NCBI GenBank assembly: GCA_016208305.1
Contig: JACQYI010000009.1
Coordinates: 620,001 to 684,000, forward strand
Direction: 5' to 3'
Origin: Oscillatoriophycideae cyanobacterium NC_groundwater_1537_Pr4_S-0.65um_50_18
Lineage (GTDB): Bacteria; Cyanobacteriota; Cyanobacteriia; Elainellales; Elainellaceae
Length of the DNA stretch: 64,000 nucleotides
The notes below the pieces were generated by a model that did not search any database, was not told the origin of the DNA, and saw nothing but the letters and a program-made list of their open reading frames with translations. Shown one piece after another: positions 20,136 through 61,440 of this stretch. The stretch's first letter is position 1; every line of letters starts with the position of its first letter. The position numbers and the translations under genes were made by a program.

Positions 20136-20482
20136 CGCCTCCCGTTTTTGATTGCGAGAACGGTGAAGCCGAAGGGAGCAACGGTGCAGTAGACCCGACG
20201 GTTTGACCTTGAAGGACGATCGATCAAGCTCAGAGCTTGGAAGTTGGAGCGATTTGCTCAGCATTCCGAGTTCTGAGCTTTGTTTTTGGAGTAAAAAGGT
20301 TGGAGTTTTGCGATCGGATGTTGGGATGTGGGGGTTGGAGGTTGGAAGTTGCAGATCTGAACTGGAAAGCTCTGATTTTGAGCAGGGTCGCGCCAGGTTT
20401 AAGCACTGCGATTCAACTAAAGACGATTTTTAATCCAAATGCGATAGTAGGAACAATTGCATTGTTGCTGGAACTGAGACTC
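20136..20482. other. intergenic region before NACHT gene
   Basis: About 350 bases. Frames are open, giving artificial N-terminal extensions of the next gene, but the sequence is a run of degenerate GTTGGAAG/GAGCTTGGA-like short repeats on the + strand without protein-family likeness. No clear promoter was picked out. Confidence 0.55.
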
Positions 20483-23400: not shown

Positions 23401-23725
23401 CGACCCCGAGACCTTAGTGATGCTCAAAACCTGGGCACAAAGCGATGAAGATTCCAATGTGCGTGGTGCGGCAGTTCAGGAGTTAGCGCGAGGCTGGAAA
23501 GACGACCCCGAGACCTTAGTGATGCTCAGAACCCGGGCGCAAAGTGATGAACATTTCTTTGTGCGTCGTGCGGCAGTCCAGGAGTTAGCGCGAGGCTGGA
23601 AAGACGACCCCGAGACCTTAGTGATGCTCAGAACCCGGGCGCAAAGTGATGAACATTTCTTTGTGCGTCGTGCGGCAGTCCAGGGAGTTAGCGCGAGGCT
23701 GGAAAGACTCACCTGGTATATTTGA
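20483..23725 (+). CDS. NACHT NTPase with C-terminal HEAT repeats, 3' frameshift
   Basis: As written, 1080 residues. An N-terminal domain (1-270, beginning MVDWLVVWGIAQAAGF) precedes a NACHT domain: Walker A LGDPGSGKSTLL (near 302-313), Walker B IALFDGIDEVF (near 382), VVTSRW sensor and a GNPLLLTMM helical region. Near 780 a series of 34-residue HEAT-like units with WKDDPETLVML begins. Such NLR-like proteins are often antiphage or stress sensors. An extra G at 23683-23685 shifts the frame in the ninth unit; the original C-terminus continues at 23685. The start is the family-like methionine, not the open frame from 20237. Confidence 0.85.
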   Translation: MVDWLVVWGIAQAAGFVFKPILEDLAKESAKDYAKDFFKDCLKKVIRLPEKDVQKEAYGKALKEFLQLVQDELEDADYQDAQIKQYIQPLQKFIKQEAVAAALGRAFEADCRGLDIALLNQTWRGLELPHLPETFDWERVSKRYCRKVKAIVQESDKLRPIFEAQAQEKMAEGVQELVGIAPAFDLSRYAEGLREQYGNLKLESLDTTGVYYSELQLWKIFIPQTVRECQEFLPQFYEIPKDQMRRLRQSGQVDEIEIAEVELEQHRRVYGEQLPQSVLEVVGDPGVVAEMRQTSLINHAVILGDPGSGKSTLLQYMALVWAERPLIELSLHPIPLLIELRSYARDKQAGLCRDMLTFLHSGNITCRLNQQELHDKLTAGEAIALFDGIDEVFDPTLRDQVVTDIHRFTNDYPAVQVVVTSRWLGYKAQRLRDAGFRHFMLQDLEAEQIEAFMQRWHDLTFVEGADKQRKQARLQKAIRDSKAIRELAGNPLLLTMMAILNRNQELPRDRPRLYERASEVLLYQWDVEAKVLEDPKLKDLKITVDLKDKQAMLRKIAYHMQSSAKGLAGNLISRTDLENLLTDYLRTIVERGEPRMVARIMIDQLRTRNFILCYLGADSYAFVHRTFLEYFCAWEFVWQFKETQTLTIEQLKQDVLGQHWRDETWHEVMRLISGMIDASFAGKLLEFLLEQQGQKEKFINLFLAAKCLAEVSKRVEIHGVVQRLLSQIQALTNYDLDYYYQKHLDEEETKLVFEIRTQAVSAVAETWQEEGLTYPWLKTRAQSDEDSDVRCAAVQALAQGWKDDPETLVMLRTWAQSDEDSNVRRAAVQALARGWKDDPETLVMLKTWAQSNEDLFVRFAAVQELAQGWKDDPETLVMLRTWAQSDEHFFMRFAAVQELARGWKDDPETLVMLKTWAQSDEDSNVRFAAVQELARGWKDDPETLVMLKTWAQSDEDSNVRRAAVQELARGWKDDPETLVMLKTWAQSDEDSNVRGAAVQELARGWKDDPETLVMLRTRAQSDEHFFVRRAAVQELARGWKDDPETLVMLRTRAQSDEHFFVRRAAVQGVSARLERLTWYI
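22826..23685 (+). repeat. 102-bp tandem repeat, eight full copies plus part
   Basis: Each 102-bp unit encodes one 34-residue HEAT-like repeat. Units are nearly identical in DNA, with most change in the helix-turn positions (DSN, DLF, HFF) and in the residue after VR. That pattern implies recent duplication or gene conversion, with variation kept at exposed positions. Confidence 0.93.
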
Positions 23726-32455: not shown

Positions 32456-34651
32456 CTAGCGCCACAGCTTAATCGTGGTGTCGCTACTGCTGCTGACCAG
32501 GGCTTGCGTCGCGGGTTGCACCGTTACCGATAAGATCCCGCTGGCATGGGCGGGAATATTTTGCAGAGATTGCCCCGTTTGGGTGTCCCAAATCTTGAGG
32601 GTTTTATCAGAGCTGGCGCTGGCCAGCATGCGATCGTTAATGAACGCGACAGAATCAACGCGATCGCTATGTCCCTCAAAGGTTTGCAGCAGTTGCCCGG
32701 TGGCGGCATCCCACGACTTCACAAAGCCATCCCAGCCTGCACTCGCTAGCTGTTTGCCATCGGGGCTAAAGGCAACGGCTCTGACGGTATCCCGATGTCC
32801 GCCCGGTTCTCCCAACGTCCGGATTAGCTCTCCGGTTGCCACATCCCACATGCGGATCGTTTTGTCGGCGCTGCCGCTGGCGATCGTCTCTCCGTCAGGG
32901 CTAAGCGCTACGGCATAGACTACTGCTGTATGCTCGGCCAGCACCCGGCTACCTTCGGTGCGCAAATCCCAAACTCTGACGGTAGTATCTTCGCTGCCGC
33001 TAATCAAAGTCTGTCCATCTTGGCTCAAGGCCACCGACCAAACAGGGCCAGTATGCCCTTCTAGCGTATGCAGTAATCGTCCTGTGGGCACATCCCAAAC
33101 TTTGATGGTGTTATCGCTACTGCCACTCGCGAGAATTTGACCATTTTGGCTCAGGCTGAGCGATCGAACAGCGGCAAGGTGTCCATCTAAGGTGCGCTGT
33201 ACCTTCCCCGTTTTGACATCCCAGATTTGAATTGGGTAGAACTGACCTGCGGCATCTTGAGCTTCGCCGCCGCTCATCAGGGTTTGGCCATCAGGACTCA
33301 GAACCGCTGACCATACCGCCAGCGAGTTGCCCGCCAGGGTTTCGGCTAAGGCTAGAGGGCGGATAGGGCTGAGCTGCGCGCTAGAGGTTTCAGGCGTTAG
33401 GGAAGCAGACTGCAAAACGCGAGGAATAGCGTAAAAGCCGATCGCCAGCGCTAGCAAAAGACCACCCCCCACCAGCAAGCGGGGAAACTTGCGGGACGGC
33501 TGTGCCTCTGCGCTCGGAGAGCTGACAGGACTAGCGGCAGGGCTAGGGGCAGGACTGGCGGCGGCAGGATTCGCTAGGAGGGGTCGAGCAACCGTAGACA
33601 AATCAGCAGCCCGATCAGCAGCCCGATCGCCCTGAGCCACAGGTGGCGGTAGGGGAGTAGGAGCCAGCAACAGAGGATTAATCGGCGTTTCATTGGCGGC
33701 TTGCAGCGCTTCACTTAAGGCTGCGACAGAGGCAAAGCGATCGCCCGGAGATTTTTCGAGGCAGCGCATTACAATGGCCTCTAGCTCTGGGGAAATATGT
33801 CCACAGTCCAGTTGCGATCGCAAAGGCTTTACAGGCTGGGTGGCATGAGCGGTGAGCCAGGTATCGTTGCTAACGCGCTGGGTGCGGAAGTCAAAGCCAA
33901 ACGGATCGATCCCGGCTAACATCTCGTAAAGGATGACGCCCAAACTGTAAATATCAGAGCGCTCATCTACCTCTCCCCGAAAGTCAAATTGCTCTGGCGA
34001 AGCATAGTGGCAGGTGCCCAAAAAAACGCTGGTGGCACTGGTAAACTCAGCCTGGAGAGAATGAATCTTGGCAATGCCAAAGTCAATTACTTTGACGAAT
34101 TCGCCCAAGGCAGAAGGCACTAAAAAGATATTGGCAGGTTTCAAGTCTCGGTGGATAACCTTGATGCGCTCACTAGAGGCCACCTCGCCGCTCCAGAGCA
34201 CGACCCCTTCATGCGCCAACTGCAATCCTGCACAAATCTGAGTCATGATGTTGCAAGTTCGAGCCACAGACAGGCGCGGCTGATTATACAGCAATTGATC
34301 GAGGGGCTGCCCTTGCAGATACTCCATCACATAGAAGGGATAGCCTTCAGGCGTTACCCCATAATCGCTGACTTGGACAATGTGCGGACTCTTCAAGGCG
34401 GCACAGATGGCGCATTCCCGCTCAAATCGCCGTTTAAAGTCCAGATCTTCAGCCAGCGCTAGAGACTCTCGCAAAAGCTTGACGGCAACGGGTTTACCCA
34501 GACGGGTATCAGTTGCCAAAAATACTTCTCCCATGCCTCCACCGCCCAGACGATCGTCAATACGATAGCGGTTGCGATCGCCCACTAAACGACCGCTCCA
34601 GGGATTAGGCTGACCTGTTGAAGAATTAGGCTGACTCAAGGCTATCACCAT
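32456..34651 (-). CDS. Ser/Thr protein kinase with seven WD40 repeats
   Basis: A 731-residue membrane kinase. The kinase domain (28-310) has a glycine-rich loop GGGGMGEV, Lys58 (PVAVKLL), HRDLKPANI and DFGIAK, so it should be active. A Pro/Ala-rich linker and one membrane helix (near 392-410) follow. The C-terminal part (about 435-731) has seven WD40 units, a complete propeller that would sit on the far side of the membrane if the topology is simple. It may read an extracytoplasmic or lumenal cue. Its neighbour combines WD40 with a caspase fold. Confidence 0.92.
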   Translation of the reverse strand: MVIALSQPNSSTGQPNPWSGRLVGDRNRYRIDDRLGGGGMGEVFLATDTRLGKPVAVKLLRESLALAEDLDFKRRFERECAICAALKSPHIVQVSDYGVTPEGYPFYVMEYLQGQPLDQLLYNQPRLSVARTCNIMTQICAGLQLAHEGVVLWSGEVASSERIKVIHRDLKPANIFLVPSALGEFVKVIDFGIAKIHSLQAEFTSATSVFLGTCHYASPEQFDFRGEVDERSDIYSLGVILYEMLAGIDPFGFDFRTQRVSNDTWLTAHATQPVKPLRSQLDCGHISPELEAIVMRCLEKSPGDRFASVAALSEALQAANETPINPLLLAPTPLPPPVAQGDRAADRAADLSTVARPLLANPAAASPAPSPAASPVSSPSAEAQPSRKFPRLLVGGGLLLALAIGFYAIPRVLQSASLTPETSSAQLSPIRPLALAETLAGNSLAVWSAVLSPDGQTLMSGGEAQDAAGQFYPIQIWDVKTGKVQRTLDGHLAAVRSLSLSQNGQILASGSSDNTIKVWDVPTGRLLHTLEGHTGPVWSVALSQDGQTLISGSEDTTVRVWDLRTEGSRVLAEHTAVVYAVALSPDGETIASGSADKTIRMWDVATGELIRTLGEPGGHRDTVRAVAFSPDGKQLASAGWDGFVKSWDAATGQLLQTFEGHSDRVDSVAFINDRMLASASSDKTLKIWDTQTGQSLQNIPAHASGILSVTVQPATQALVSSSSDTTIKLWR

Positions 34652-34767
34652 GGGAAGCTCTCAGACATTTACAATACAGCCAACACAAAACAAGAGAGAC
34701 AATCCAAATTAAAAATTAAGCTTGATGAAACGGGCGTCGCTGAATTGCAGGATAAATCTGTAATGGC

Positions 34768-37101
34768 TCACGGCTGCAATTTCCAAACGGCAACTGTTCC
34801 ATCTCGACCGCCGCTGACCAGAGTCTTGCCATCGGGGCTAAACGTGACCGATAAAATCCAGTCCAGATGTCCCTTAAGACTCGCAAGCAGGGTTTGACTC
34901 TCTAAGTCCCAAATCTTGATGGTATTGTCAATGCCGCCGCTGGCGATCGTTTTGCCATCGGGGCTAAAGGCCACAGAGACAACATTATTTACATGTCCGG
35001 TAAAGGTGTTCAGCTCCTCGCCTGTTTGGACATCCCACAGCTTGACTGTCCCGTCCCAGCTGCCACTCGCCAGTCGTTCGCCCTTGGCATCAAAGACCAG
35101 CGCCCTGACGGTATCTGTATGTCCTGGCAAATTACGCAGCATTTTTCCGGTTTGCCAGTCCCAAATCTTGATGGTGGTATCTTTGCTGCCGCTAGCGAGG
35201 GTCTTGCCATCGGGGCTAAACACGACCGGGAAGAGACGGTCTTTATGGCCTGAAATGGTGCGCAATAGCTGGCCGCTGTTTAAATCCCACAGTCGAATGG
35301 TGCTATCGCCGCCGCCGCTGGCCAGAACTTGTCCATCAGGATGAAAGGACATTGACCACAGCACGCCTGCATGTCCGACCAGCGTTTGCAGCAGTGCCCC
35401 AGTTTGCACATCCCATAGCTTAATGGTTTTATCGGCACTGCCCGTTGCCAAAGTTTTGCCATCGGGACTCATGGCGATCGCATGAATAATCTCTGTATGG
35501 CCTTTAAGCACATGCTGGATTTCTCCAGTACGGAGGTCGCGAACTTCAACAGCATTACCGCTGACGCTGGCTAAGGTGTTGCCATCGGGAGTCAGCACCA
35601 CCCACCAGGCAGCACCCAAGCGCCCCATAAACGTTTGCACCTTGACCTGCTCCCAGGCGGCTCCGGCCTTGCAGTTGGGTAGCGAAAGCTGAGCCTGCAT
35701 CGGCTGTTTAGAGCCAGGCAAGGTTTCAAGAGGGCGATCGCAAGCTTCTTTGTTTCCGGCAGTTTCGGTTGCAGGATTAAAGCTATTCAGCAGATTGGGA
35801 TTGACCAGCCCTGTCAGGCCGCTTAAGGCAAACCCAGCGCCCAGAATCGCCAGCGCTATTCCGGCATAGCCAAAGACAGATAGCTGCTTGAGCGAAATAG
35901 TGGTGGTGTCATTTTGCGAAACAGGCTGGGGCGCGTTGGTTTGAGAATCGGGGGAAGGGGGTTGAGGGTTCATTGGCGTAGCGGGGACAGGAATCCGCGT
36001 AGGAGGAACTTCAGGAGCGATATTTAATTGGGGGGTCGGGAGTTCTGCCTTGTCATTTCCGGGTCGGGATGCGCCCATAAGCGCAGTCGCAGCGGCAATG
36101 CCCGTCAGGGGACTGCCACTCCCGGCCTTGACTGTCTCAGAACTATCAGGACTATTAGAACTATCAGGATTAGAAGTACCAGAGCTTTCTGGAATGAGTC
36201 CGAGGACTAATTCGCCCACCCCTTCCACGATGCGCTTGGGCGTTTGAGGCGGATATTCGGGGTGGAGGGGGCTTTCTTTACGCAGTTTTTTCTCTTCATT
36301 GAGCACCCGTAACTGCTGGTTTTTTTGACTCAGGTACTCTACGGTCTGGCGGTAGACATATCGGTAGAGCGCATCGGCTTCAATTACCCCTTGGGCATCG
36401 GCAGCTTCGCCGCGCAAGCCTTGAATCAGATAGTAGGTAAACACACCATGTCCTAGCTCAGGAAATTCCCAAGATCGCTGCCCTTCGCCACAAGACAGCA
36501 GGGCATAAAAGCCTCGGCTCTGAGCCGCACGGGTGCGCAAAACCTTGACCATCTGCACAGTCGGTTCAAACGAGCCGATCGCCGTTGGTTCATCCATGCC
36601 TCTGGCTCCCCGCAAAACCAGACTGCCGCTGTGGCAGGCATCGAGCCATAGCAGCTGATGACGAGCCGCACAGCCTTCTAGAAGCTGTAATAGCTCTTGC
36701 ATCTTTAAGCCTGTGGTCAAGAGCGAGTCATTTTGCGTGTCGCTCAGACACAATACGGCCTGCTGGGTGGTTTGCTCAATAACGCCATGCCCAGAGAAAT
36801 AGAACAATACAGTGTCTTGCGGTTGAGCGGCTGAAGTAATGCGTTTCAGGCTGTTGTAGACGGACTCAAAGGTGGGGAAAGCGGCAAAATCGTGATGAAC
36901 AATGACCTGCTTACGGGGAAATTCTCTTGTCGCTTCGTTCAGCGCTGCTCCTAATTCCTGGCAGTCGATCGCGGAGTAGTCTAACGCTGGAAATTGCTCA
37001 TCCTGATATTGATTGACGCCCACGAGAAGAATCCACATCTTCGCTTTTCCGGTCGCCAGGATTTGAGTGGAGTCGCTGGTTTTAAGGCTCAGAGGACACA
37101 T
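34768..37101 (-). CDS. caspase-fold (C14) protease with seven WD40 repeats
   Basis: A 777-residue protein. Residues 22-240 are a caspase/metacaspase domain with catalytic His105 (FYFSGHG) and Cys156 (LDACHSGS). A Pro/Thr/Ser-rich linker follows, then one membrane helix (about 411-432), a Cys-containing stretch and seven WD40 repeats (about 490-777). Cyanobacterial orthocaspases of this type have been linked to stress and cell-death responses. It is on the same strand as the kinase-WD40 gene, 117 bases upstream of it. The methionine at codon 22 is a possible alternative start. Confidence 0.92.
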   Translation of the reverse strand: MCPLSLKTSDSTQILATGKAKMWILLVGVNQYQDEQFPALDYSAIDCQELGAALNEATREFPRKQVIVHHDFAAFPTFESVYNSLKRITSAAQPQDTVLFYFSGHGVIEQTTQQAVLCLSDTQNDSLLTTGLKMQELLQLLEGCAARHQLLWLDACHSGSLVLRGARGMDEPTAIGSFEPTVQMVKVLRTRAAQSRGFYALLSCGEGQRSWEFPELGHGVFTYYLIQGLRGEAADAQGVIEADALYRYVYRQTVEYLSQKNQQLRVLNEEKKLRKESPLHPEYPPQTPKRIVEGVGELVLGLIPESSGTSNPDSSNSPDSSETVKAGSGSPLTGIAAATALMGASRPGNDKAELPTPQLNIAPEVPPTRIPVPATPMNPQPPSPDSQTNAPQPVSQNDTTTISLKQLSVFGYAGIALAILGAGFALSGLTGLVNPNLLNSFNPATETAGNKEACDRPLETLPGSKQPMQAQLSLPNCKAGAAWEQVKVQTFMGRLGAAWWVVLTPDGNTLASVSGNAVEVRDLRTGEIQHVLKGHTEIIHAIAMSPDGKTLATGSADKTIKLWDVQTGALLQTLVGHAGVLWSMSFHPDGQVLASGGGDSTIRLWDLNSGQLLRTISGHKDRLFPVVFSPDGKTLASGSKDTTIKIWDWQTGKMLRNLPGHTDTVRALVFDAKGERLASGSWDGTVKLWDVQTGEELNTFTGHVNNVVSVAFSPDGKTIASGGIDNTIKIWDLESQTLLASLKGHLDWILSVTFSPDGKTLVSGGRDGTVAVWKLQP

Positions 37102-40194: not shown

Positions 40195-40290
40195 CAACAC
40201 CTGACTTTTTAGGACTTTTTCAGGCTGGCAAAGCCGGAAAATCCGTTTATTTTGTTTTTGTTGGCAAAAAGATATTTGAGGGAAGTTTTT

Positions 40291-42105
40291 ATGTTTGCAA
40301 AAGTTCCAGAAAAGTATATGCATTTGACCCGATGGGGGTTAGTCATTGGCTGGCTCATCTTGATCGTGTCTATGTTTTATGATCCGATCTCAGCCCAACT
40401 CACCGAATCCAAACAGCTCTTTGCAGCTTCCACCCCAACAGGTTGCTATCAGTTTCAAGGGGAGTGTCGTCCGCTAACGGCTTATCCCTTAGGGGCAAGA
40501 ATTTTTTGGGGCATGGTGCTGCCTCTATCGATCATTACTCTTCTGGTTTTTGGGCATGAAGCTTGGCGGCGAATTTGTCCGCTCTCTTTTCTGTCACAAA
40601 TTCCTCGATCTCTGGGATGGCAGGGCAAACGCACAATCGACGAAAATTCCTGGCTAGGACGCAATGCCCTGTATCTTCAGTTTTCTCTCTTATTTGCTGG
40701 GCTAAACCTGCGGCTGCTGCTGGTCAATTCCGATCGCTTTTTATTGGGAATATTCTTAATCTTTACCATTCTCACAGCTATCACCGTTGGGTTCCTCTAC
40801 GACGGTAAAACTTGGTGTAACTACTTCTGCCCGATGGCACCTGTGCAAATGATTTACAGCGAACCCAGCGGGCTGCTGGGCAGCGAAGCGCACCGCACAC
40901 CCCCCAAGACCATCACCCAGTCGATGTGTCGCACTGTCGATAAAAGCGGTCAAGAAAAAAGCGCTTGTGTGGCTTGTAAGGTGGGCTGTATCGATATCGA
41001 CGCAGAAGGGGCTTATTGGGAAGGCATTAAAAAACCAGACCGCAAGCTGCTTTACTATGCCTATGTTGGCCTGGTGATCGGATTTTACTCTTATTTTTGG
41101 CTGTACTCTGGAAGCTGGAGTTTTCTATCAGCCGGGGTTTGGAATGAAACAAACCAGATGGCGACTCTGCTTCAGCCGGGGTTCTTTATCGCAGGTCAGG
41201 CGATCGCTGTTCCCAAACTAATCGCTGTTCCGCTCACGATGACGGTCACAGCAGGCGTCACCTATGCGATCGGTTTATGGGCAGAATGGTACTACAAACG
41301 CCATAACAAACGGCAAAGACATCCGCTCAGCTCAGAGCAAGTACAAAGCCGGATGTTTGCCATCACTACATTTATTGCGTTTAATCTGCTGTTTTTTATG
41401 GGAGTTCGACCCACGCTGGGCTACTTCCCGGTTGCTATCCAGCACCTCTTGAGTTGGGCGGCGATCGTTATCAGCAGTTTGTGGGTGGTCAAATCCTGGA
41501 ACCGCAGTATGCAGCGCTATAACCGGGAGCGCGATGCCAATCTTCTCCGCCGACAGCTCAGCAAACTCAATATTGACCTTTCGCAATTTCTCGAAGGCCG
41601 TTCGATGGAGCAGCTCAAACCCGATGAGCTATATGCACTAGCCAAAGTGCTGCCGGGTTTTAGCAATAACTACCGTCTGCAAGTCTATCAAGGCACCTTA
41701 AAAGAAGCCTTAGAACAGGGCAGCGTCACACCAGCCAGAAGTCTAAAAGTCTTTCACACCCTGCGCCAAAAGCTGGAGATTTCTGAAGAACTGCATTGGT
41801 CAATCCTAGACAAGCTCCAGGCAGAAGAACCCAACCTGTTTCACCTTTCTCGCTGGCAAACCCAAGATTCTGATACCACGGTTGTAAGACCTTCTTCTGA
41901 ACGTCGAGCAACCGCCGAAGAGACGCTCTATCGCCCCGCCGATCGCCCCCCCAATCGCCCTATCGATCGCCGCCCCGAAGCTCCACCCACTCAAAAAAAT
42001 CCGGATGCCCAACCCGATCGCAACCCTAGCTTCCATGATCTTGATCCGACGGTGGTCAAACCGAATCCTCAAGATGTTCCGCCTTCTGACTCTCGTCCAG
42101 ACTAG
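40291..42105 (+). CDS. NapH/CcoG-like membrane polyferredoxin with Thr-motif tail
   Basis: A 604-residue protein with about eight membrane helices. WCNYFCPMAPVQMIYS and CVACKVGCIDID supply cysteines like those of NapH/NosR/RdxA-type 4Fe-4S proteins. GCYQFQGECRP near 52 adds two more. A soluble domain (415-530) follows the helices, then a disordered Pro/Arg-rich tail (about 530-604). The tail repeats a motif: TVVRP, TLYRP and TVVKP, each after an acidic residue. It probably passes electrons across or along the membrane. GAGGG before the ATG at 40291 decides the start. Confidence 0.82.
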   Translation: MFAKVPEKYMHLTRWGLVIGWLILIVSMFYDPISAQLTESKQLFAASTPTGCYQFQGECRPLTAYPLGARIFWGMVLPLSIITLLVFGHEAWRRICPLSFLSQIPRSLGWQGKRTIDENSWLGRNALYLQFSLLFAGLNLRLLLVNSDRFLLGIFLIFTILTAITVGFLYDGKTWCNYFCPMAPVQMIYSEPSGLLGSEAHRTPPKTITQSMCRTVDKSGQEKSACVACKVGCIDIDAEGAYWEGIKKPDRKLLYYAYVGLVIGFYSYFWLYSGSWSFLSAGVWNETNQMATLLQPGFFIAGQAIAVPKLIAVPLTMTVTAGVTYAIGLWAEWYYKRHNKRQRHPLSSEQVQSRMFAITTFIAFNLLFFMGVRPTLGYFPVAIQHLLSWAAIVISSLWVVKSWNRSMQRYNRERDANLLRRQLSKLNIDLSQFLEGRSMEQLKPDELYALAKVLPGFSNNYRLQVYQGTLKEALEQGSVTPARSLKVFHTLRQKLEISEELHWSILDKLQAEEPNLFHLSRWQTQDSDTTVVRPSSERRATAEETLYRPADRPPNRPIDRRPEAPPTQKNPDAQPDRNPSFHDLDPTVVKPNPQDVPPSDSRPD

Positions 42106-42127
42106 CGTTCTGCTCGTCAAACCATCC

Positions 42128-42170
42128 GGTCGTCAAACCATCTGGCATCGCTGAACATGGTTTGACGACC
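42128..42170 (+). terminator. 14-bp perfect hairpin after polyferredoxin gene
   Basis: GGTCGTCAAACCAT (42128-42141) pairs with ATGGTTTGACGACC (42157-42170). The sequence CGTCAAACCATC also occurs just upstream (42115-42126) as a direct repeat. It separates the polyferredoxin and FHA genes, so the two may have separate or attenuated transcription. Confidence 0.65.
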
Positions 42171-42365
42171 AACCCTAGCCTCGCTCGCAACCTTCTGCAT
42201 TAGACTCCTGCATAAAGGCTCAATACCCATCGTTAAGTAATAAGTAAGGCGTTGAACCCCAACGCATTTTCTCAAAAACAAGTCGATCGCCTGTTTCGCA
42301 TCTACCCATGCTTTTCCCAGACCCCATCATTCCCCTTTTCTAATTACTGACTTAGGAGACCGAAA

Positions 42366-43895
42366 ATGCTCAAGCTCAAAGTATTCAACTCTCAGACTGG
42401 CGAATTTCAAGAAGCGGCTCTATCGCCAGACTCGACCCCTCAGGGGGAATGCTTGGTAGGACGAGCCTCCAACTGTGATTTGGCACTAGAGAGTCCGGAT
42501 GTGAGCCGGGTGCATGGCCGGATTAAGGCGCAAAAGGGAGAGTATTTTTACACCGATCTGGGCAGCGCCAATGGGTCGCATATCAATAACGAACAGGCGC
42601 AAGCGCACCAAGGCTATGTCCTCAAGGTGAATGACCTGCTTCGGATTGCCGACTTTGTGCTGTTGGTAGAAGCGATCGAACCGGGTGTAGCCAGTGGAGA
42701 AGATTCGATTTGGAAAAAGTTGGGAGGCGATCGCTATTGGACAAAGGGTGACTTAACCGTTCGCTGTGTCCGCATCACCGACGAAACTGCTGATGTCAAA
42801 ACCTTTACCTTTGTGGCAGAGCCGCTGGTTTTGTTTGACTACAAGCCCGGTCAATTTGCCACCCTAGAGCTAGAAATCAATGGAGAACAGGTGCTGCGCT
42901 CCTACTCTATTTCATCGACGCCCTCTCGTCCCCACACGCTAGAAATTACGGTGAAGCGCGTCCCTGCCCCAGCAGGAGTCTTGCAGGCTGGGCTGGTGTC
43001 TAACTGGCTGCATGACAATCTCAAAGTGGGCAGCCAAATTAAGTTGAGCGGCCCCCTAGGAAAATTTACCTGCCAGCCTGACCCCGCCCCAAAACTCCTG
43101 TTTATTTCAGCAGGCAGCGGCATTACGCCCGTCATGTCAATGTCGCGCTGGATTGCCGATACAGCGCAGCAATCTGATATTGTGTTTTTCCACTGCGCTC
43201 GCACCCCCCGCGATGTCGTCTTTCGGCAAGAGTTGGAAATGATGGCGGCACGCCTACCCAATTTTCGGCTAGCGCTGAGCACCACTCGCCCAGAGCCAGG
43301 TCAGCCCTGGTTTGGGTTTACAGGCAGAATCACGGCTTCTCTGCTACAAATGGCGGCCTCAGACTATCAGGAACGCACGGTCTATGTTTGCGGCCCCAAT
43401 GGGTTTATGCAAGAAGTGAAAGCGCTGTTAGAAGGCTTGGGTTTCCCCATGCAGAACTATCACGAAGAGAGCTTCGGCGCACCGAAGAAGGTCAAAGCTG
43501 CGAAAGCTGATGCTGCTAGTCCGGTAGCCAGTCCGGTAGCCAGTCCGGTAGCCGGAGGAGCAGCGATCGCCACTCACCGCCCCGCTGCTCCTCCGGTCAG
43601 CGCTCCCGCACCCGCCGCAGGAGCCGCCGCTCAGCCCCTCGTGGTGTTTTCTCAGTCGGGCAAACAGGTGTCCTCCGATGGCTCAGAATCTGTTTTAGAA
43701 CTGGCTGAGCAGGAAGGCATTAAAATTCGCAGCAACTGCCGTCAGGGGGTTTGTGGCGCTTGCAAAAAGCGTAAGCTAGAAGGCGAAATCAAGTATGAAT
43801 CAGAGCCGGATGCTCTGGAGCAAAGCGAGCAAGACGCAGGCTTTATTCTCTGTTGTGTTGCGGCTCCGGTGGGTCGGGTGGTCATCGAAGCCTAA
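42366..43895 (+). CDS. FHA-flavin reductase-2Fe-2S ferredoxin fusion
   Basis: A 509-residue soluble protein with three modules. Residues 1-98 are an FHA domain (GRASNCDLAL, VSRVHGRI, LGSANGSHIN), which binds phosphothreonine. Residues 118-375 are a ferredoxin-NAD(P) reductase-type unit: RSYSISSTP binds FAD, SAGSGITPVMSM and YVCGPNGFM bind NAD(P). An Ala/Pro linker leads to a plant-type 2Fe-2S domain (420-509) with CRQGVCGAC and a fourth Cys in ILCC. The layout resembles hybrid-cluster protein reductases (Hcr) plus FHA. It could dock by phosphothreonine to a membrane partner, perhaps the polyferredoxin upstream. Confidence 0.9.
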   Translation: MLKLKVFNSQTGEFQEAALSPDSTPQGECLVGRASNCDLALESPDVSRVHGRIKAQKGEYFYTDLGSANGSHINNEQAQAHQGYVLKVNDLLRIADFVLLVEAIEPGVASGEDSIWKKLGGDRYWTKGDLTVRCVRITDETADVKTFTFVAEPLVLFDYKPGQFATLELEINGEQVLRSYSISSTPSRPHTLEITVKRVPAPAGVLQAGLVSNWLHDNLKVGSQIKLSGPLGKFTCQPDPAPKLLFISAGSGITPVMSMSRWIADTAQQSDIVFFHCARTPRDVVFRQELEMMAARLPNFRLALSTTRPEPGQPWFGFTGRITASLLQMAASDYQERTVYVCGPNGFMQEVKALLEGLGFPMQNYHEESFGAPKKVKAAKADAASPVASPVASPVAGGAAIATHRPAAPPVSAPAPAAGAAAQPLVVFSQSGKQVSSDGSESVLELAEQEGIKIRSNCRQGVCGACKKRKLEGEIKYESEPDALEQSEQDAGFILCCVAAPVGRVVIEA

Positions 43896-55069: not shown

Positions 55070-55720
55070 ATGAGTGAACTGGATGTCCAACTTCGTCAAC
55101 TCGTCAAAGAGGCTTGTCGCCATCCGCCCGGAAGCCCAGCCCGGCAGCGGCATCTAACTCAAGTCATTCGGCTTTCGTCAGGCAAGCTGTGGCGCGAAAG
55201 CGTGCCCTACTATCAAGATGCTTTGCAGCAGACCTGGGTGTATTTTTGTCAAAATGTCTGTGAAGCCAAAACGGGCGATCGCTACAATCCCGATCGCAGC
55301 AGCGTTTCCACCTGGCTTAACTCTTACTTAAGACGGCGGCTCCAAGACTTTTTCATTGACGGACAGAAACAGCAGGCGAGTCGAGCCACAGGGCTGGCGC
55401 GAGGTTCGCGATCGGGTGAAACAGGCGAAGTCGTAGACCCAATTGATAATCTTGCCGCCCAGCCCGATGTGCCGCCTATCCTGCAAGAGGTGAAAACCTG
55501 GGCTGAGACAGATATTACCGGAGAGCTGCGGCGCGTCCATATTGAAGGATATCCTCAAATCACCTGCCAAATGCTGATTTTGCGGAGGCTACCGCCAGAG
55601 ACCGGATGGAAAGAGCTTTCTGCTGAGTTGGGGCTGTCGGTTTCTACCTTGAGCAGCTTTTATCAGAGGCAATGTTTGCCGCGTTTGCGTAAATTTGGTC
55701 AATCGGAGGGATATCTATAA
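55070..55720 (+). CDS. sigma-70-like factor, short (locus B)
   Basis: A 216-residue protein. SVPYYQDALQQTWVYFCQN and YNPDRSSVSTWLNSYLRRRLQDF resemble sigma70 region 2 with its core-binding helix, and ETGWKELSAELGLSVSTLSSFYQRQCLPRLRKF is a region 4-type helix-turn-helix. It is short, like ECF factors. GAGGAG precedes the ATG. It leads the run DUF1822, CHAT-CHASE2, DUF928 with gaps of 29, 171 and 180 bases, and probably controls them. Confidence 0.85.
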   Translation: MSELDVQLRQLVKEACRHPPGSPARQRHLTQVIRLSSGKLWRESVPYYQDALQQTWVYFCQNVCEAKTGDRYNPDRSSVSTWLNSYLRRRLQDFFIDGQKQQASRATGLARGSRSGETGEVVDPIDNLAAQPDVPPILQEVKTWAETDITGELRRVHIEGYPQITCQMLILRRLPPETGWKELSAELGLSVSTLSSFYQRQCLPRLRKFGQSEGYL

Positions 55721-55749
55721 AGCACTGGAGGACTTAAAGAGCTTTTACT

Positions 55750-56703
55750 ATGACATACACTACCTCGTCTGCACTACCACTTCCCATTACCCGCCAAGCA
55801 ATCGCACTCGCTGACCAGTTTGCCCACCGACATCCGGCAGGGAAAGCAGCTCAAGTTCGGTTGAATACGCTAGCGGTTTGTGTCATGAATGACTATCTGC
55901 ACATGATGGGCATCGCGACCGACTTGACAGCCAGCGATAGCTGGAATCCGGTTAGCCAGCTGGGTGCCGATGTGGCAGATCTGGAAGTTGCAGGCGTTGG
56001 TAAGCTAGAATGTCGCCCTTGCCTATCTACAAGCGAGAGCTGTTTTGTGCCGCCAGAAGTGTGGGAAGACCGGATAGGCTATGTCGTCATCCAAATTGAT
56101 GAAACGACTCAAGAAGCCAGCCTCTTAGGGTTTGTCGAACGGGCAATCGAGACATTGCCAATTAGTGAGCTGCAATCTCCTGAGGCTTTGCTGGATCACC
56201 TCGATCGCCTGATGCATCCTGTGGCCGCTGCTGCAATGGCCGGATCACGGGTGGTTAACCTCAGCCAATGGCTGCAAAATAGCTTTGAAACAGGCTGGCA
56301 AACCGTCAATTCCCTGCTCAATCCTCCCAACCTTGCCTATGGCTTTCGGGGCATGGAATCAGATCAGGATGCGCTTCAGGGGGAGAGCCAAGGCAGCTTC
56401 CGTCGTGCCAAGCTCATTGATCTCAGTATCCAAATGCCCAATCCTGTTGCGCTGGTGGTGGAACTGACGCCAGAAGGACAGCGGACTGAGATTTGCCTTC
56501 AGGTGCATCCTACGGGCACTGCCTATCTCCCGGCAGATTTGCGGCTGTCGGTGTTAGATGAAGCCGGAGAACTCTTTCTAGAAGCGCAGTCTCGCGGAAC
56601 GGATAATTATATTCAGCTTCAGTTTAGCGGCAGCTCCGGCGAGACATTCCAAGTTCAGGTGGCGATCGCTGATACCCATGTCACAGAAACTTTCGTGATT
56701 TAA
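55750..56703 (+). CDS. DUF1822 family protein (locus B)
   Basis: A 317-residue protein matching DUF1822: RLNTLAVCVMNDYLHMMGIATDL, SDSWNPVSQL, VAGVGKLECRPCL and PPEVWEDRIGYVVIQIDE..EASLLGFV. The C-terminal 100 residues are beta-rich. No signal peptide. It follows the sigma-like factor by 29 bases, the same pairing as locus A, where the two genes are farther apart. GGAGG lies about 20 bases before the ATG. Function unknown; an anti-sigma or scaffold role would be speculation. Confidence 0.9.
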   Translation: MTYTTSSALPLPITRQAIALADQFAHRHPAGKAAQVRLNTLAVCVMNDYLHMMGIATDLTASDSWNPVSQLGADVADLEVAGVGKLECRPCLSTSESCFVPPEVWEDRIGYVVIQIDETTQEASLLGFVERAIETLPISELQSPEALLDHLDRLMHPVAAAAMAGSRVVNLSQWLQNSFETGWQTVNSLLNPPNLAYGFRGMESDQDALQGESQGSFRRAKLIDLSIQMPNPVALVVELTPEGQRTEICLQVHPTGTAYLPADLRLSVLDEAGELFLEAQSRGTDNYIQLQFSGSSGETFQVQVAIADTHVTETFVI

Positions 56704-56724
56704 CGCTGCAACATCTTTGAGCGG

Positions 56725-56774
56725 TTGCAGACCAGTTGCAGACCAGTTGCAGACCAGTTGCAGACCAGTTGCAG
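56725..56774. repeat. 11-bp tandem repeat, 4.5 copies
   Basis: TTGCAGACCAG is repeated four times without change from 56725 and ends in TTGCAG. It lies between the DUF1822 stop and the CHAT-CHASE2 start. An 11-base period is close to one helical turn, so it could space protein-binding sites, or it is simple slippage. Confidence 0.9.
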
Positions 56775-56874
56775 AAAAAGCACATACAAGCCGCAGCTTT
56801 TGCAATCTTGCCCCCTTGATTTCAGCCCGTTAACCAGCACCTGAACAATATCCTAAAGCCGTGAGGAAGCCCTG

Positions 56875-59433
56875 ATGGCGGGTAAGTTAGTTGTCCTAAA
56901 ATTTGGCGAAGGCAGCGTTGAGACAGGCTTCTCAGTCACGCTGCAAATTAGTGAAGAACAAGACGCACAACCTGGCTTGGCCTACTATCCCGTGGCAGAA
57001 GTTGCAGGCAAACTGCCCCCCGCGCCCGATCTGCTGCGCTATTACCAGCTTTGGCAAACCACCTATCGGCAGATGGGCACCCTAACCCGCCTCGAAGCCC
57101 CCAAAGCACAAGTCACCAATGTTTCCATCCTGGCGGACTGTCAAAGCGCAGCCGAGGCGCTAAGCGATCGCTTTAACACCTGGCTGCGATCAGAGTCCTT
57201 TCGCCCGCTACGGGAAAAATGGCTGGAGCAGCTCTCGCCTCAGGATTCGATCCGGGTGATTTTGCAAACCGACAATCCGCTGCTGCAACGGCTACCCTGG
57301 CAAACCTGGGAGCTAGGCGATCGCTATACCTATTCAGAACTTGCCCTCAGCTTACCCACCTATGAGCAAATTGGCAAAGTGTCTCCTGCCAAAGATAAGC
57401 TCAAAATTCTGGCGGTCTTGGGCAACAGCCAGGGCATTGATGTGCAGAGCGATCGCGCTTTGCTAGAGCAACTTCCAGATGCCGATATTCACTTTCTGGT
57501 AGAGCCGCAGCGGCAAGAGCTAACCGATCAGCTTTGGGCACAGTCTTGGGACATTCTATTTTTTGCCGGACATAGCTCAAGTCAGGGGACAGGCATTCTG
57601 TCCGATCAAGCAGGGGCAGAGCCAGCATCAGGCACTCGCGAAAGCCACATCCCTGCTGAGTTTCCTCCCGCCATTCCCATCTCCTCCATGCCTACCGAAC
57701 TGGGGCAAATCTCGATCAATGCCACCGATAGCCTTACCATTCGCCAACTCCGCTACGGACTGCGCAAAGCCGTTGAACGCGGACTGAAGCTGGCAATTTT
57801 CAACTCTTGCGATGGCTTGGGGTTAGCGCGCAACCTGGCAGATTTACAGATTCCTCAAATGATTGTCATGCGCGAACCCGTACCCGATCGCGTGGCGCAA
57901 GAATTCCTCAAGTCATTTCTGGCAGGCTTTTCCCAGGGCGAACCGTTCTATCAGTCTGTGCGTCAGGCTCGCGAACGTCTGCAAGGGTTGGAAGATCAGT
58001 TTCCCTGTGCCACATGGCTGCCAATCATTTGCCAAAATCCAGCCGAAGCGCCCCCCACTTGGCAAAAGCTCATTGGGCGAGAAAGGCTGCCCTCAGCGGC
58101 GATCGCCCTGCTTCCAGATGCGCCCCAGACGCTGAGCGAGGCTCAACCCAGAGAACCATCAAGCCAACGCCTCAGAAGCGCATCGACGCGATCGCTTGTC
58201 CTCCAGCATTTGCGCCAGTTTTCCAAAGTGGCGATGGCGAGTCTGTTGGTGACGGCAACGCTAACGGGTCTGCGCTATACCGGACTGCTGCAATCCTCAG
58301 AGCTACAGGCCTTTGATCAACTGATGCGGCTGCGCCCTGCTGAAGCCGAAGATTCGCGGCTGCTAATTGTCACGATCAGCGAGCAGGAGCGGCAGCAATA
58401 TGGGGCAGAGATACCTGGAGTGGGGCGCGTGTCTTTGAGCGATCGCTACCTCAATCAACTCCTGACTCAACTCAAGCAAGCCCAACCCAGCGTCATTGGC
58501 TTAGATTTATACCGCGATTTTCCGGCTGAGCCTGCTATGGCGCAGCAGTTTCGCCAAAGTCAGCAGCTTATTTCTGTTTGCAAAGCCCGCTATAGCGGAG
58601 GGGACAGCGTTCCGGCTCCGCCTGATGCCGCTCCTGAGCAGGTTGGCTTTAGCGACTTTGTTGCCGATGAGGATGGCAAGCTGCGCCGTCACCTGTTGGC
58701 TATGACAACGCCTTACATCGATCCTAAAACTGCCTGTACGGCTGTCCATGCCTTTAACCTGCAACTCGCCTCACGCTACCTCATGGCGCAGCAAATTCCG
58801 CTTGTGGGTGATGCCGAAGCCGATTTGTGGCTTGGCAAAGTTGCCCTCCGACGGCTCAAGGCGCGGATGGGAGGCTACCAGCCTGTAGACGATCGCGGCA
58901 ATCAAATTTTGCTGAATTACAGAGCTGCGCCCTTTCTAGACAATCGGGTGTCGTTGACCGATGTGCTGTCAGGCAATGTCAATCCTGGCATTATCAAAGA
59001 TCGGATTGTGCTCATAGGCGTAACGGCTGAAAGCAGCTCAGATGTATGGGATACGCCCCTTGACGCTCACATGCCCGGAGTGGTGGCGCAAGCCCATATG
59101 GTCAGTCAAATTATTAGCGCTGTGCTAGATGGGCGATCGCTGCTCTGGGTATGGTCGCTCTGGCAAGAGATCCTCTGGCTGCTGGGCTGGGCGCTGCTGG
59201 GGGCTGGGCTAGGTTGGGGGCTGCGATCGCCCTGGAAGCTGGGATTGGCGATCGCTGTTAGCACGCTGACGCTCTCAGGTCTTTGCGGGGTGATGCTGCT
59301 CCAGGGCGGCTGGATTCCGCTGATTCCTCCCCTAATCGCGCTGATGATGGCTGCCAGTGCGATGTCAATTCTCAGTCGCTTGACGGCTAGAACTCGTCCT
59401 GATCCGGCTCAGGCTTTGCCGGAGGATAGGTAA
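56875..59433 (+). CDS. CHAT protease-like and CHASE2 sensor protein
   Basis: An 852-residue membrane protein. Residues 1-415 include a CHAT domain (caspase-like) with the His in FFAGHSSS (near 230) and Cys in FNSCDG (near 310), so the protease dyad is present. A membrane helix near 445-465 leads to a CHASE2 extracytoplasmic sensor (about 470-740), and three more helices close the protein (750-840). There is no output kinase after CHASE2, so the CHAT domain is probably the output. It follows DUF1822 and sigma-factor genes. GAGGAAG precedes the ATG. Confidence 0.92.
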   Translation: MAGKLVVLKFGEGSVETGFSVTLQISEEQDAQPGLAYYPVAEVAGKLPPAPDLLRYYQLWQTTYRQMGTLTRLEAPKAQVTNVSILADCQSAAEALSDRFNTWLRSESFRPLREKWLEQLSPQDSIRVILQTDNPLLQRLPWQTWELGDRYTYSELALSLPTYEQIGKVSPAKDKLKILAVLGNSQGIDVQSDRALLEQLPDADIHFLVEPQRQELTDQLWAQSWDILFFAGHSSSQGTGILSDQAGAEPASGTRESHIPAEFPPAIPISSMPTELGQISINATDSLTIRQLRYGLRKAVERGLKLAIFNSCDGLGLARNLADLQIPQMIVMREPVPDRVAQEFLKSFLAGFSQGEPFYQSVRQARERLQGLEDQFPCATWLPIICQNPAEAPPTWQKLIGRERLPSAAIALLPDAPQTLSEAQPREPSSQRLRSASTRSLVLQHLRQFSKVAMASLLVTATLTGLRYTGLLQSSELQAFDQLMRLRPAEAEDSRLLIVTISEQERQQYGAEIPGVGRVSLSDRYLNQLLTQLKQAQPSVIGLDLYRDFPAEPAMAQQFRQSQQLISVCKARYSGGDSVPAPPDAAPEQVGFSDFVADEDGKLRRHLLAMTTPYIDPKTACTAVHAFNLQLASRYLMAQQIPLVGDAEADLWLGKVALRRLKARMGGYQPVDDRGNQILLNYRAAPFLDNRVSLTDVLSGNVNPGIIKDRIVLIGVTAESSSDVWDTPLDAHMPGVVAQAHMVSQIISAVLDGRSLLWVWSLWQEILWLLGWALLGAGLGWGLRSPWKLGLAIAVSTLTLSGLCGVMLLQGGWIPLIPPLIALMMAASAMSILSRLTARTRPDPAQALPEDR

Positions 59434-59613
59434 GGTTCTCAACTCATGATCTATATTTTGAAAAATAAGCTTTAAAACAACACGTTATCAACTTGTAATA
59501 TATTTTGCTACAAATGTAGTATTACCGAAACATTGCCCCATCGAAATAGCGTCTCTTGAAAATGTAGTCTGCTTACAGCACAGCCCCATAGCATCCAAAG
59601 ATTTTTAACCGCC

Positions 59614-60363
59614 ATGAAATCACATTTCTCCATCACGGTGCTTTTCACGCCTGCCCTTGCCCTAGCGCTCACCCTGCTAACCAGTCTCCCGACTCTGGCA
59701 CAGTATGCGCCAGAGGGGCGCGCGCGCGGGGGAGCCACCTACATCAAGTTTGAGCCACCTGCCCTGGGCAATGCACCCGGCGGGCGATCGCGCGGGGGAG
59801 CCAGCCGAGGCGAATGCTTACCTGCAACGCTGCCGCTCACGGCAATTGTGCCCACCATTGACGGCTCTGTCGGTGGATTAACGACAGCTGACCATCCGAC
59901 CCTTTGGTTCTATGTGCCCTATACCTTAACAACCGATCGCCCCGCAGAATTTGTTTTGCTAGATGACCAAAATAAATATGTCTACCAGACCACCGTGGTG
60001 AACAGTACAAGAGAGGCAACGGGGATTGTCAAAGTCACGCTTCCCACGACAGTGACGCTAGAAAAAGACAAGGTTTATCAATGGGTATTCATGGTCAATT
60101 GCGAAATTGACAACCCCATCTTTACAAGGGGCAGCATTCGCAAAGTGACGCTCGATCCGGCGATCGGAAACCCCCTCAAACAATCTACAGAGCTAGAAAA
60201 AACCCGAATCTATGCCGAAAATGGCATCTGGTTTGACGCCTTAACGACTTTGGCAGAGCTAAAAATCGCCAGCCCCGAAGATGCGGCGATCGCGGCTGAA
60301 TGGCAAAGCTTACTAGAATCGGTTGATCTGGCAGATGTCGTCGATCAGACTTTTGTCCCCTGA
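59614..60363 (+). CDS. DUF928 family exported protein
   Basis: A 249-residue protein with a signal peptide (hydrophobic 8-27, TLAQ cleavage). The mature start has two Arg-Gly-Gly motifs (GRARGGA, GRSRGGASRGEC) typical of DUF928. The core follows: LTTADHPTLWFYVPY, AEFVLLDDQNKYVYQT, DKVYQWVFMVNC and YAENGIWFDALTTLAELK. DUF928 genes often accompany CHASE2, CHAT-TPR and two-partner-secretion genes in cyanobacteria. Function unknown; it probably acts in the periplasm or outer membrane. Confidence 0.9.
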   Translation: MKSHFSITVLFTPALALALTLLTSLPTLAQYAPEGRARGGATYIKFEPPALGNAPGGRSRGGASRGECLPATLPLTAIVPTIDGSVGGLTTADHPTLWFYVPYTLTTDRPAEFVLLDDQNKYVYQTTVVNSTREATGIVKVTLPTTVTLEKDKVYQWVFMVNCEIDNPIFTRGSIRKVTLDPAIGNPLKQSTELEKTRIYAENGIWFDALTTLAELKIASPEDAAIAAEWQSLLESVDLADVVDQTFVP

Positions 60364-60471
60364 GCAGCAGAATTTTTGAGAAATATAGAGAAGCGTTTAT
60401 TCTCTACGGGATCTGGGTATGTTTTTTTGAAGGGCTAGCGAAATAGCCTGACACAAATGGCAGCTTAATCG

Positions 60472-61440
60472 ATGGAAATTCTAGAGCAGACCCCTCAGCG
60501 GCTATCCCTGCGCGATCGCGCCATTTCGCTATGGGTAGTAGGGGCAGGTCTCGTCCTAGGAGGTCTCTTCGTCATCGGTCAGGGTCAGATGACCACCTTC
60601 AACTGTCGCCGCAATCTGTCGGAGCAAAGCCAGTGCTACCTCAGCAAATTTGGGACGTTGGGCGTTGGGTCTAGCCAGCAGTCGATCAATAGCCTCCGAG
60701 GCGCTATAGTTGACAGTCACCGTAGCAGCAAAGGCCGACGGACTTATTGGGTGGTGCTAGCCACAGATGACGGCAATCTTCGACTCACCCACAGTAGCTC
60801 TAATTCATATGAGCAGGAAGCGATCGCCGATCAAATTAATGCCTTTGTGATCAACCCCAAGGCGCAATCACTGCAAATTCAGCAAGACGATCGGGCTTGG
60901 ATGCTGCTGTTTGGCGGTCTGCTGCTGGGGCTAGGAGCCATCTTTGTCATGGTTATTTGCCGAGTCACATACTGCGATTTAGACCGAACTACAGGAAAGC
61001 TGCGCATTGCGCGATGGGGCTTTAGAGGAACGAATGTGCATGAATATCCTCTGCATCAGGTTGCCTCAGCTAATCTAGATACCCGCATTGAGAAATATAA
61101 AGGTCAACTGCGTACAACCTATCGTATTACCTTTCGTCTGCTGTCCGGCAAACAGATCCCCTTAAATCAGTTTTATGCTCAAGATCGGATGCGAGCAAAA
61201 GCTGCCTATGCTCTTTCTTCTTTCTTAGCGACCCGCCCTGCCGTCCTAGAGGAGGCGATCGAACCGCAGCTTGACGAAGCCGAGAGACTGTATCGCCTGG
61301 GTATGGAGCAGTATCGGCAACAGCAAATGCAGGAAGCTGGAACAAACCTGAAACAGGCCAGAGATTTGTTCAAGCAGCAGCACAGTACCCAACGGGTGAT
61401 GGAGATTCAGACATTGCTGTGGCAGCTCAGTTTAGAGTGA
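60472..61440 (+). CDS. two-helix membrane protein with PH-like and helical domains
   Basis: A 322-residue protein. One helix near 18-38 and one near 140-160 enclose an extracytoplasmic part with two cysteines. A beta-rich part (about 165-250: YCDLDRTTGKLRIARWGFRG, TYRITFRLLSGKQIPL) resembles bacterial PH-type domains. The C-terminus (260-322) looks like a TPR-type helical pair (AERLYRLGMEQYRQQQMQEAGTNLKQARDLF). I do not recognise a named family. It follows DUF928 by 108 bases and may belong to locus B. Confidence 0.6.
   Translation: MEILEQTPQRLSLRDRAISLWVVGAGLVLGGLFVIGQGQMTTFNCRRNLSEQSQCYLSKFGTLGVGSSQQSINSLRGAIVDSHRSSKGRRTYWVVLATDDGNLRLTHSSSNSYEQEAIADQINAFVINPKAQSLQIQQDDRAWMLLFGGLLLGLGAIFVMVICRVTYCDLDRTTGKLRIARWGFRGTNVHEYPLHQVASANLDTRIEKYKGQLRTTYRITFRLLSGKQIPLNQFYAQDRMRAKAAYALSSFLATRPAVLEEAIEPQLDEAERLYRLGMEQYRQQQMQEAGTNLKQARDLFKQQHSTQRVMEIQTLLWQLSLE

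Follow-up and report, generated by a model that had tools for sequence, protein, structure and literature searches.

A cyanobacterial cassette of sigma factor, DUF1822, CHAT-CHASE2 and DUF928 genes and its possible reading as a protease-controlled sigma switch

How a membrane sensor bearing a caspase-like protease might be connected with transcription is the question raised by locus B, a group of genes in a 64,000-nucleotide stretch from the Oscillatoriophycideae cyanobacterium NC_groundwater_1537_Pr4_S-0.65um_50_18 (contig JACQYI010000009.1, positions 620,001 to 684,000). This 64-kb stretch is called the window here, and all coordinates are positions in it. Locus B consists of four same-strand genes, which encode a sigma factor, a DUF1822 protein, a protein composed of an N-terminal domain, a CHAT domain and a CHASE2 domain, and a DUF928 protein, and which we treat as one cassette. 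An earlier reading made from the DNA letters (the sequence-only reading) had proposed that CHASE2 senses an extracytoplasmic cue, that CHAT cleaves a regulator, possibly DUF1822, and that the sigma factor switches on the operon. The answer that we tentatively favor is that the cassette may be a protease-controlled sigma switch, in which DUF1822 inhibits the sigma factor and the CHAT protease cuts the linker of DUF1822, thereby releasing it. Proteolytic release of sigma from DUF1822 via CHASE2 appears to be the likeliest reading because it is analogous to the system of Csx29, Csx30 and CASP-sigma (PMC10028731).

Gene content and recurrence of the cassette

The four gene identities assigned by the sequence-only reading were confirmed, with the open reading frames present and DUF1822, CHASE2, CHAT and DUF928 all recognized by Pfam. 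The gaps between the genes are 29, 171 and 180 bp. The same reading had extended the locus to position 61440, which was appropriate for these four genes and not for the last one (60472-61440, with two hydrophobic stretches); no relative of the latter was found in any other locus fetched, and it is therefore placed outside the cassette.

The locus B set recurs across cyanobacteria. The surroundings of approximately 100 DUF1822 genes were mapped in genomes of the window's own class, and a sigma gene occupied position -1 on the same strand for 93 of 107 DUF1822 genes, against seven other placements within five genes (six on the same strand elsewhere and one on the opposite strand), so that the adjacency is not attributable to chance. 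The median gap between the two genes was 23 bp, and 56 pairs overlapped or lay no more than 30 bp apart. The pairing suspected from the window is thus the rule and not a rarity. The module of N-domain and CHAT (EACC-CHAT) followed at position +1 in 56/106 cases and DUF928 at +2 in 25 loci. DUF1822 was present in 48 of the 64 class genomes sampled, in up to 11 copies per genome, yet it is seldom named in the literature searched. EACC-CHAT was detected in 45 of these 48 genomes but not in any of the 16 that lack DUF1822 (p=2e-12), which argues for its dependence on DUF1822. Of 19 loci centered on the closest sigma genes of relatives of the window's genome, 18 had DUF1822 and 17 had the N-terminus of CHAT within 1.5 kb on each side. 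The cassette also occurs on plasmids, one example being plasmid C of Trichormus variabilis ATCC 29413. A survey of WD40 proteins recorded, in Nostoc punctiforme, a CHASE2 gene adjoining one for DUF928 (PMC5587647). At three loci (L059, L144 and L148), two DUF1822-CHAT-CHASE2 cassettes point apart around one sigma gene, and proteins with tetratricopeptide repeats (TPR) and CHAT, some apparently exported, lie beside or within five cassettes (L061, L063, L071, L100 and L109).

The sigma factor of locus B is divergent: its matches to Pfam Sigma70_r2 (E=0.009) and NCBIfam TIGR02937 (E=3e-4) are both under the cut-offs. Since Pfam alone leaves the assignment insecure, homologue profiles were used, and a profile of 57 homologues gave the solved extracytoplasmic function (ECF) sigma factors SigK, SigE and SigH as top matches (E=0.002-0.015). 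This short type was carried by 21 of 40 relatives. A long type, exemplified by locus A of the window, is also paired with DUF1822; long sigma factors mostly accompany long DUF1822 proteins (43/51) and short ones mostly short DUF1822 proteins (30/42). Directly 5′ of DUF1822 at loci L123, L128 and L129, long genes were found whose identity as sigma genes could not be confirmed. At loci L197 and L205, the short-type match is part of a reading frame of 858 aa, which may be a fusion. DUF1822 goes unmentioned in a recent survey of the sigma factors of cyanobacteria (PMC11119718).

Locus A does echo locus B, as the sequence-only reading had stated, with two redox genes (40252-43895) intervening between its sigma and DUF1822 genes. 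Their products are a membrane Fe-S protein and an oxidoreductase of the FHA-flavin-2Fe2S type; in the other long-type pairs mapped, sigma and DUF1822 adjoin directly. The genome of the window has six DUF1822 genes, five of which have a sigma gene directly upstream.

Predicted folds and known systems

The AlphaFold2 model of the locus B DUF1822 protein (predicted local distance difference test score, pLDDT, 86.8) comprises an alpha+beta N-domain (residues ~1-190), a disordered stretch (194-212) and a beta-sandwich C-domain (217-317). Kaur et al. label DUF1822 a TPR protein; this label was rejected on the basis of the confident model, which is not helical-repeat, and of Pfam, which shows DUF1822 only. 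The linker between the domains ranges from 14 to 108 residues across the alignment, and some members have longer inserts. Of 74 clusters, 65 have Arg and 5 have Lys at position 200, with neighboring positions reaching approximately half, and the motif [FMLATVIG]R[SGNQ] occurs in 139 of 173 linkers, against a mean of 39 and a maximum of 50 in shuffled sequences. What is new here is the predicted two-domain architecture, with a disordered linker that contains an almost invariant Arg or Lys. The conservation of a basic residue in a linker that is otherwise free between two folded domains points to cleavage or to docking, and this residue is a good candidate cleavage site. Fold matches to the C-domain included many immunoglobulin-like folds, all with Z below 8, and were uninformative; Csx30 was not among the matches listed, which barely covered the N-domain, and a relation to it is not thereby excluded. 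In a family from another class of the phylum (f24), the N-terminal half of DUF1822 was weakly matched within frames of approximately 500-1300 aa from small genomes, where the N-domain may occur as a fusion.

The 852-aa protein matches CHASE2 (E=2e-68) and CHAT (E=2e-14, 54 bits against a cut-off of 24) in Pfam. Its model (pLDDT 86.7) shows the N-domain, a caspase-like core and a membrane helix, followed by CHASE2 and another three membrane helices (762-782, 786-809 and 817-840), with disordered stretches at 238-268 and 407-438. From the usual topology of CHASE2 proteins, the protease would lie inside and the sensor outside the membrane. The His-Cys dyad is kept in 62 of 63 aligned CHAT rows, the odd row resembling an alignment failure, and this conservation and a predicted separase/Csx29-like fold substantiate the caspase-like output domain that had been proposed. 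Residues 1-119 are alpha+beta, and their identity as EACC2 rests on the architecture. A profile search with CHAT-CHASE2 sequences against solved structures gave no match, and matches came from fold comparison alone, in which the predicted EACC2+CHAT region (residues 2-402) superposed as a single unit on separase, Csx29, gingipain R and DdvA. This superposition is a new observation for the first three structures, and since the two domains align jointly, EACC2 would seem to form the non-catalytic half of a module of the separase/Csx29 type rather than being an unrelated addition. Separase was the best match (Z 24 over 299 residues, ~15% identity in the aligned part), and Arg-specific gingipain R also matched (Z 18). 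Separase cuts after Arg. Arg cutting by these two proteases fits Arg200 without proving cleavage there. Separase is, however, eukaryotic, and locus B has no securin-like or cohesin partner. Residues 706-991 of the transmembrane anti-sigma factor DdvA (PDB 8rot) matched with Z 15.5, which means that a CHAT-like fold also occurs in a different protein of sigma control; DdvA is itself titled an anti-sigma factor, whereas locus B splits the CHAT protein and DUF1822 into separate genes.

Locus B is of a kind already predicted, because Kaur et al. (2021, eLife e70394, PMC8195603) describe the same triad. In their account, a protein with EACC2, a caspase and a variable C-terminus forms a predicted system with an ECF sigma factor and DUF1822, and the latter two occur in most neighborhoods without TRADD-N; autoproteolysis and a transcriptional output are predicted. 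The correspondence with locus B covers the constant alpha+beta N-domain followed by a caspase-like domain (here CHAT, with His233 and Cys312), the variable C-terminus, for which CHASE2 is named, and the neighboring ECF-like sigma and DUF1822 genes. The consulted portion of that paper contains no mention of the linker Arg, DUF928 or sigma promoters. No experimental work on EACC2-caspase/sigma/DUF1822 loci was found in the literature searched.

A functional parallel is provided by Craspase, for which Strecker et al. (2022) reported that Csx29 cleaves Csx30, an inhibitor of an ECF-like sigma factor, near Met427 (PMC10028731). Both systems encode a CHAT protease, an ECF-like sigma factor and a third, two-domain protein together, and the fold of Csx29, a TPR-CHAT protein, resembles that of EACC2+CHAT (Z 21-22). 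Csx29 is soluble, has a TPR N-terminus and is activated by guide RNA via Cas7-11, whereas the locus B protease is a membrane sensor in which Pfam detected no TPR; nearby CRISPR genes were not searched for. The cyanobacterial CHAT membrane protein HetF is a putative protease with an active site needed in vivo (PMC8406250). Unlike the window protein, HetF has TPR repeats and one predicted transmembrane segment, and the HetF model NF045509 of NCBIfam gave the window protein only 14.4 bits against a cut-off of 1200.

Sigma release and its alternatives

A motif search 5′ of short-type sigma genes yielded TTTGTAA...CGTAAAA in seven genomes. This promoter-like motif lies 5′ of a subclade of these sigma genes (loci L224-L249), and its AAC and CGT blocks resemble those of ECF promoters. 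The exact pattern TTTGTAACAA-N13/14-CGTAAAA had 15 matches in 146 genomes and none for the reversed control. All 15 fell in seven genomes, each of which carries short-type sigma genes; five were the discovery sites 5′ of a sigma gene or sigma-DUF1822 operon, and the others lay elsewhere in the same genomes. A looser pattern had 26 matches in nine genomes versus 13 for the reversed control, and its matches sharing the extension AACAA had a total length of 30 or 31 in every case. Other exact matches precede genes for EACC-CHAT (at locus L229), trypsin-like proteases, a subtilase and an RTX/CAP protein, and the looser pattern adds a two-partner-secretion (TPS) adhesin; M50-domain proteins and an exosortase are also encoded 3′ of the motif when the two scans are taken together. 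This motif, new in its position 5′ of sigma, exported protease and adhesin genes, supports the putative autoregulation of sigma genes in that subclade and a regulon related to secretion. A dyad, TTTAG...TGAT, 5′ of EACC-CHAT genes was dropped as it appears within the coding end of DUF1822.

In the mechanism that we favor, DUF1822 would keep the sigma factor inactive in the cytoplasm until CHASE2 reads a cue from outside the inner membrane. The cytoplasmic CHAT module would then cleave the DUF1822 linker, most likely after Arg200, and the cut would split the two domains apart and release sigma. The freed sigma factor would transcribe the operon that encodes it, together with genes whose products are exported; these may be DUF928 here and secreted proteases, a TPS adhesin and an RTX protein in relatives. 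This mechanism is favored by the adjacency of sigma and DUF1822, the confinement of EACC-CHAT to genomes with DUF1822, the conserved dyad, the fold matches, the promoter motif and the correlated evolutionary distances of sigma and DUF1822 (r=0.90 for the long type, n=75, and r=0.76 for the short type, n=56; reached in 0/500 permutations). Cleavage of DUF1822 by CHAT is plausible in view of the conserved linker residue, and the new clues suggest how a protease could release sigma. A more encompassing statement, that a membrane separase-like protease frees an ECF sigma factor by cutting the Arg/Lys linker of DUF1822, as a CRISPR-free, sensor-driven cousin of Csx29-Csx30-sigma that is widespread in cyanobacteria and activates secreted proteases and adhesins, is in our estimation somewhat unlikely.

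Several observations weigh against this mechanism. The promoter motif came from another sigma subclade and does not occur in the window; no promoter was recovered for the window's sigma clade by eye, with the motif at three mismatches or by footprinting within the genus, and footprinting did not show the region 5′ of the window's sigma gene to be clearly conserved. The proposal of the sequence-only reading that sigma switches on its own operon is thus encouraged by the autoregulation indicated in a related subclade and is left without a promoter for the window's own sigma factor, and its model as a whole is partly supported, the sigma-DUF1822 pairing being strong. The correlation between the distances of sigma and DUF1822 is confounded by species descent. 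No known anti-sigma domain was found in DUF1822 by Pfam. Arg200 is also kept in DUF1822 of three genomes without detected EACC-CHAT (G054, G078 and G143), and its link to the CHAT protease is therefore not specific; another protease or docking would explain this. Among the 80 loci considered below, part lack a nearby sigma or DUF1822 gene.

Docking leads to an unlikely alternative, in which DUF1822 is a positive partner of sigma (a chaperone, an adaptor or a sensor tether), CHAT cuts another protein and the linker Arg docks sigma or RNA polymerase. Short motifs conserved within disordered linkers frequently serve for docking, and there are sigma-DUF1822 pairs without an adjacent EACC-CHAT, beside trypsin-TPR, TPS or other genes, in which Arg200 is kept as it is in the genomes without detected EACC-CHAT. 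However, most anti-sigma factors are encoded beside their sigma factor, the exchange of Arg for Lys at position 200 suits a cleavage residue, and Csx29-Csx30-sigma is a close functional precedent for release by cleavage. We consider it less probable, and quite unlikely, that the cassette functions in conflict or cell death, the role proposed by Kaur et al.; the EACC2-caspase protein would then undergo autoproteolysis at a trigger from the sensor and act as the effector, and sigma would spread a defense response. Kaur et al. class EACC2-caspase-sigma-DUF1822 loci among counter-invader systems (PMC8195603), CHAT proteases serve CRISPR and SAVED systems, both of which are among the fold matches, and the two stretches of the protease-sensor predicted to be disordered could undergo autocleavage. 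Nevertheless, no defense model of PADLOC matches any of the four cassette proteins, most of the genes putatively controlled by sigma in relatives encode exported or envelope proteins, and the cassettes contain an exported DUF928 protein.

An independent set of 80 CHAT-CHASE2 loci, collected with the CHAT-CHASE2 alignment, had DUF928 in 75, DUF1822 in 66 and sigma in 48, so that CHAT-CHASE2-DUF928 and sigma-DUF1822 look like two combining units. These counts, together with the promoter motif 5′ of the EACC-CHAT gene in one genome, would suit two modules sharing an operon, with sigma-DUF1822 as the regulator, CHAT-CHASE2-DUF928 as its target and a protease that never acts on DUF1822. We regard this as the most improbable of the explanations, since EACC-CHAT never occurs in a sampled class genome without DUF1822 and a target gene may also feed back on its own regulator. 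In the same set, TPS adhesin genes were observed near 14 of the 80 loci.

If DUF1822 is a sigma inhibitor cleaved by a caspase-like protease, many uncharacterized signaling loci of cyanobacteria would gain one mechanism, and their caspase-like proteases would gain a role in gene control beyond cell death. The idea can be tested immediately by way of Arg200, the His-Cys dyad and the promoter motif.

Coordinates and other features of the window

Table 1. Positions of the features of loci B and A in the window
Feature	Position	Strand	Evidence
Short-type ECF-like sigma factor, 216 aa, sigma2 + sigma4, no sigma3 detected	55070..55720	+	TIGR02937 E=3e-4 (residues 29-200), homologue profile
DUF1822 protein, 317 aa	55750..56703	+	Pfam E=5e-73
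DUF1822 disordered linker, residues 194-212	56329..56385	+	pLDDT <50
Arg200 codon of DUF1822, candidate cleavage site	56347-56349	+	Near-invariant in linker alignment
DUF1822-CHAT intergenic region, 171 bp, with approximately five tandem copies of the 11-bp unit GTTGCAGACCA	56704..56874	+	Sequence inspection
EACC2-like N-domain + CHAT protease + CHASE2 membrane sensor, 852 aa	56875..59433	+	Pfam CHAT 103-381, CHASE2 461-777
Catalytic His233 codon	57571..57573	+	H in 62/63 CHAT alignment rows
Catalytic Cys312 codon	57808..57810	+	C in 62/63 CHAT alignment rows
Helix 438-468, putative first transmembrane segment (topology inferred)	58186..58278	+	Model secondary structure
DUF928 protein, 249 aa, N-terminal hydrophobic export signal (residues 4-28)	59614..60363	+	Pfam E=4e-53
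Locus A long-type sigma factor, 396 aa	39004..40194	+	TIGR02937 E=5e-27
Locus A DUF1822 protein, 417 aa	43948..45201	+	Pfam E=2e-103

Elsewhere in the window, a NACHT protein with an NNH2 domain and HEAT repeats is encoded at 20237-23725 and may be a STAND-type immune protein. Two adjoining large WD40 proteins, one of which has a protein kinase domain, are encoded on the minus strand at 32456-37101.

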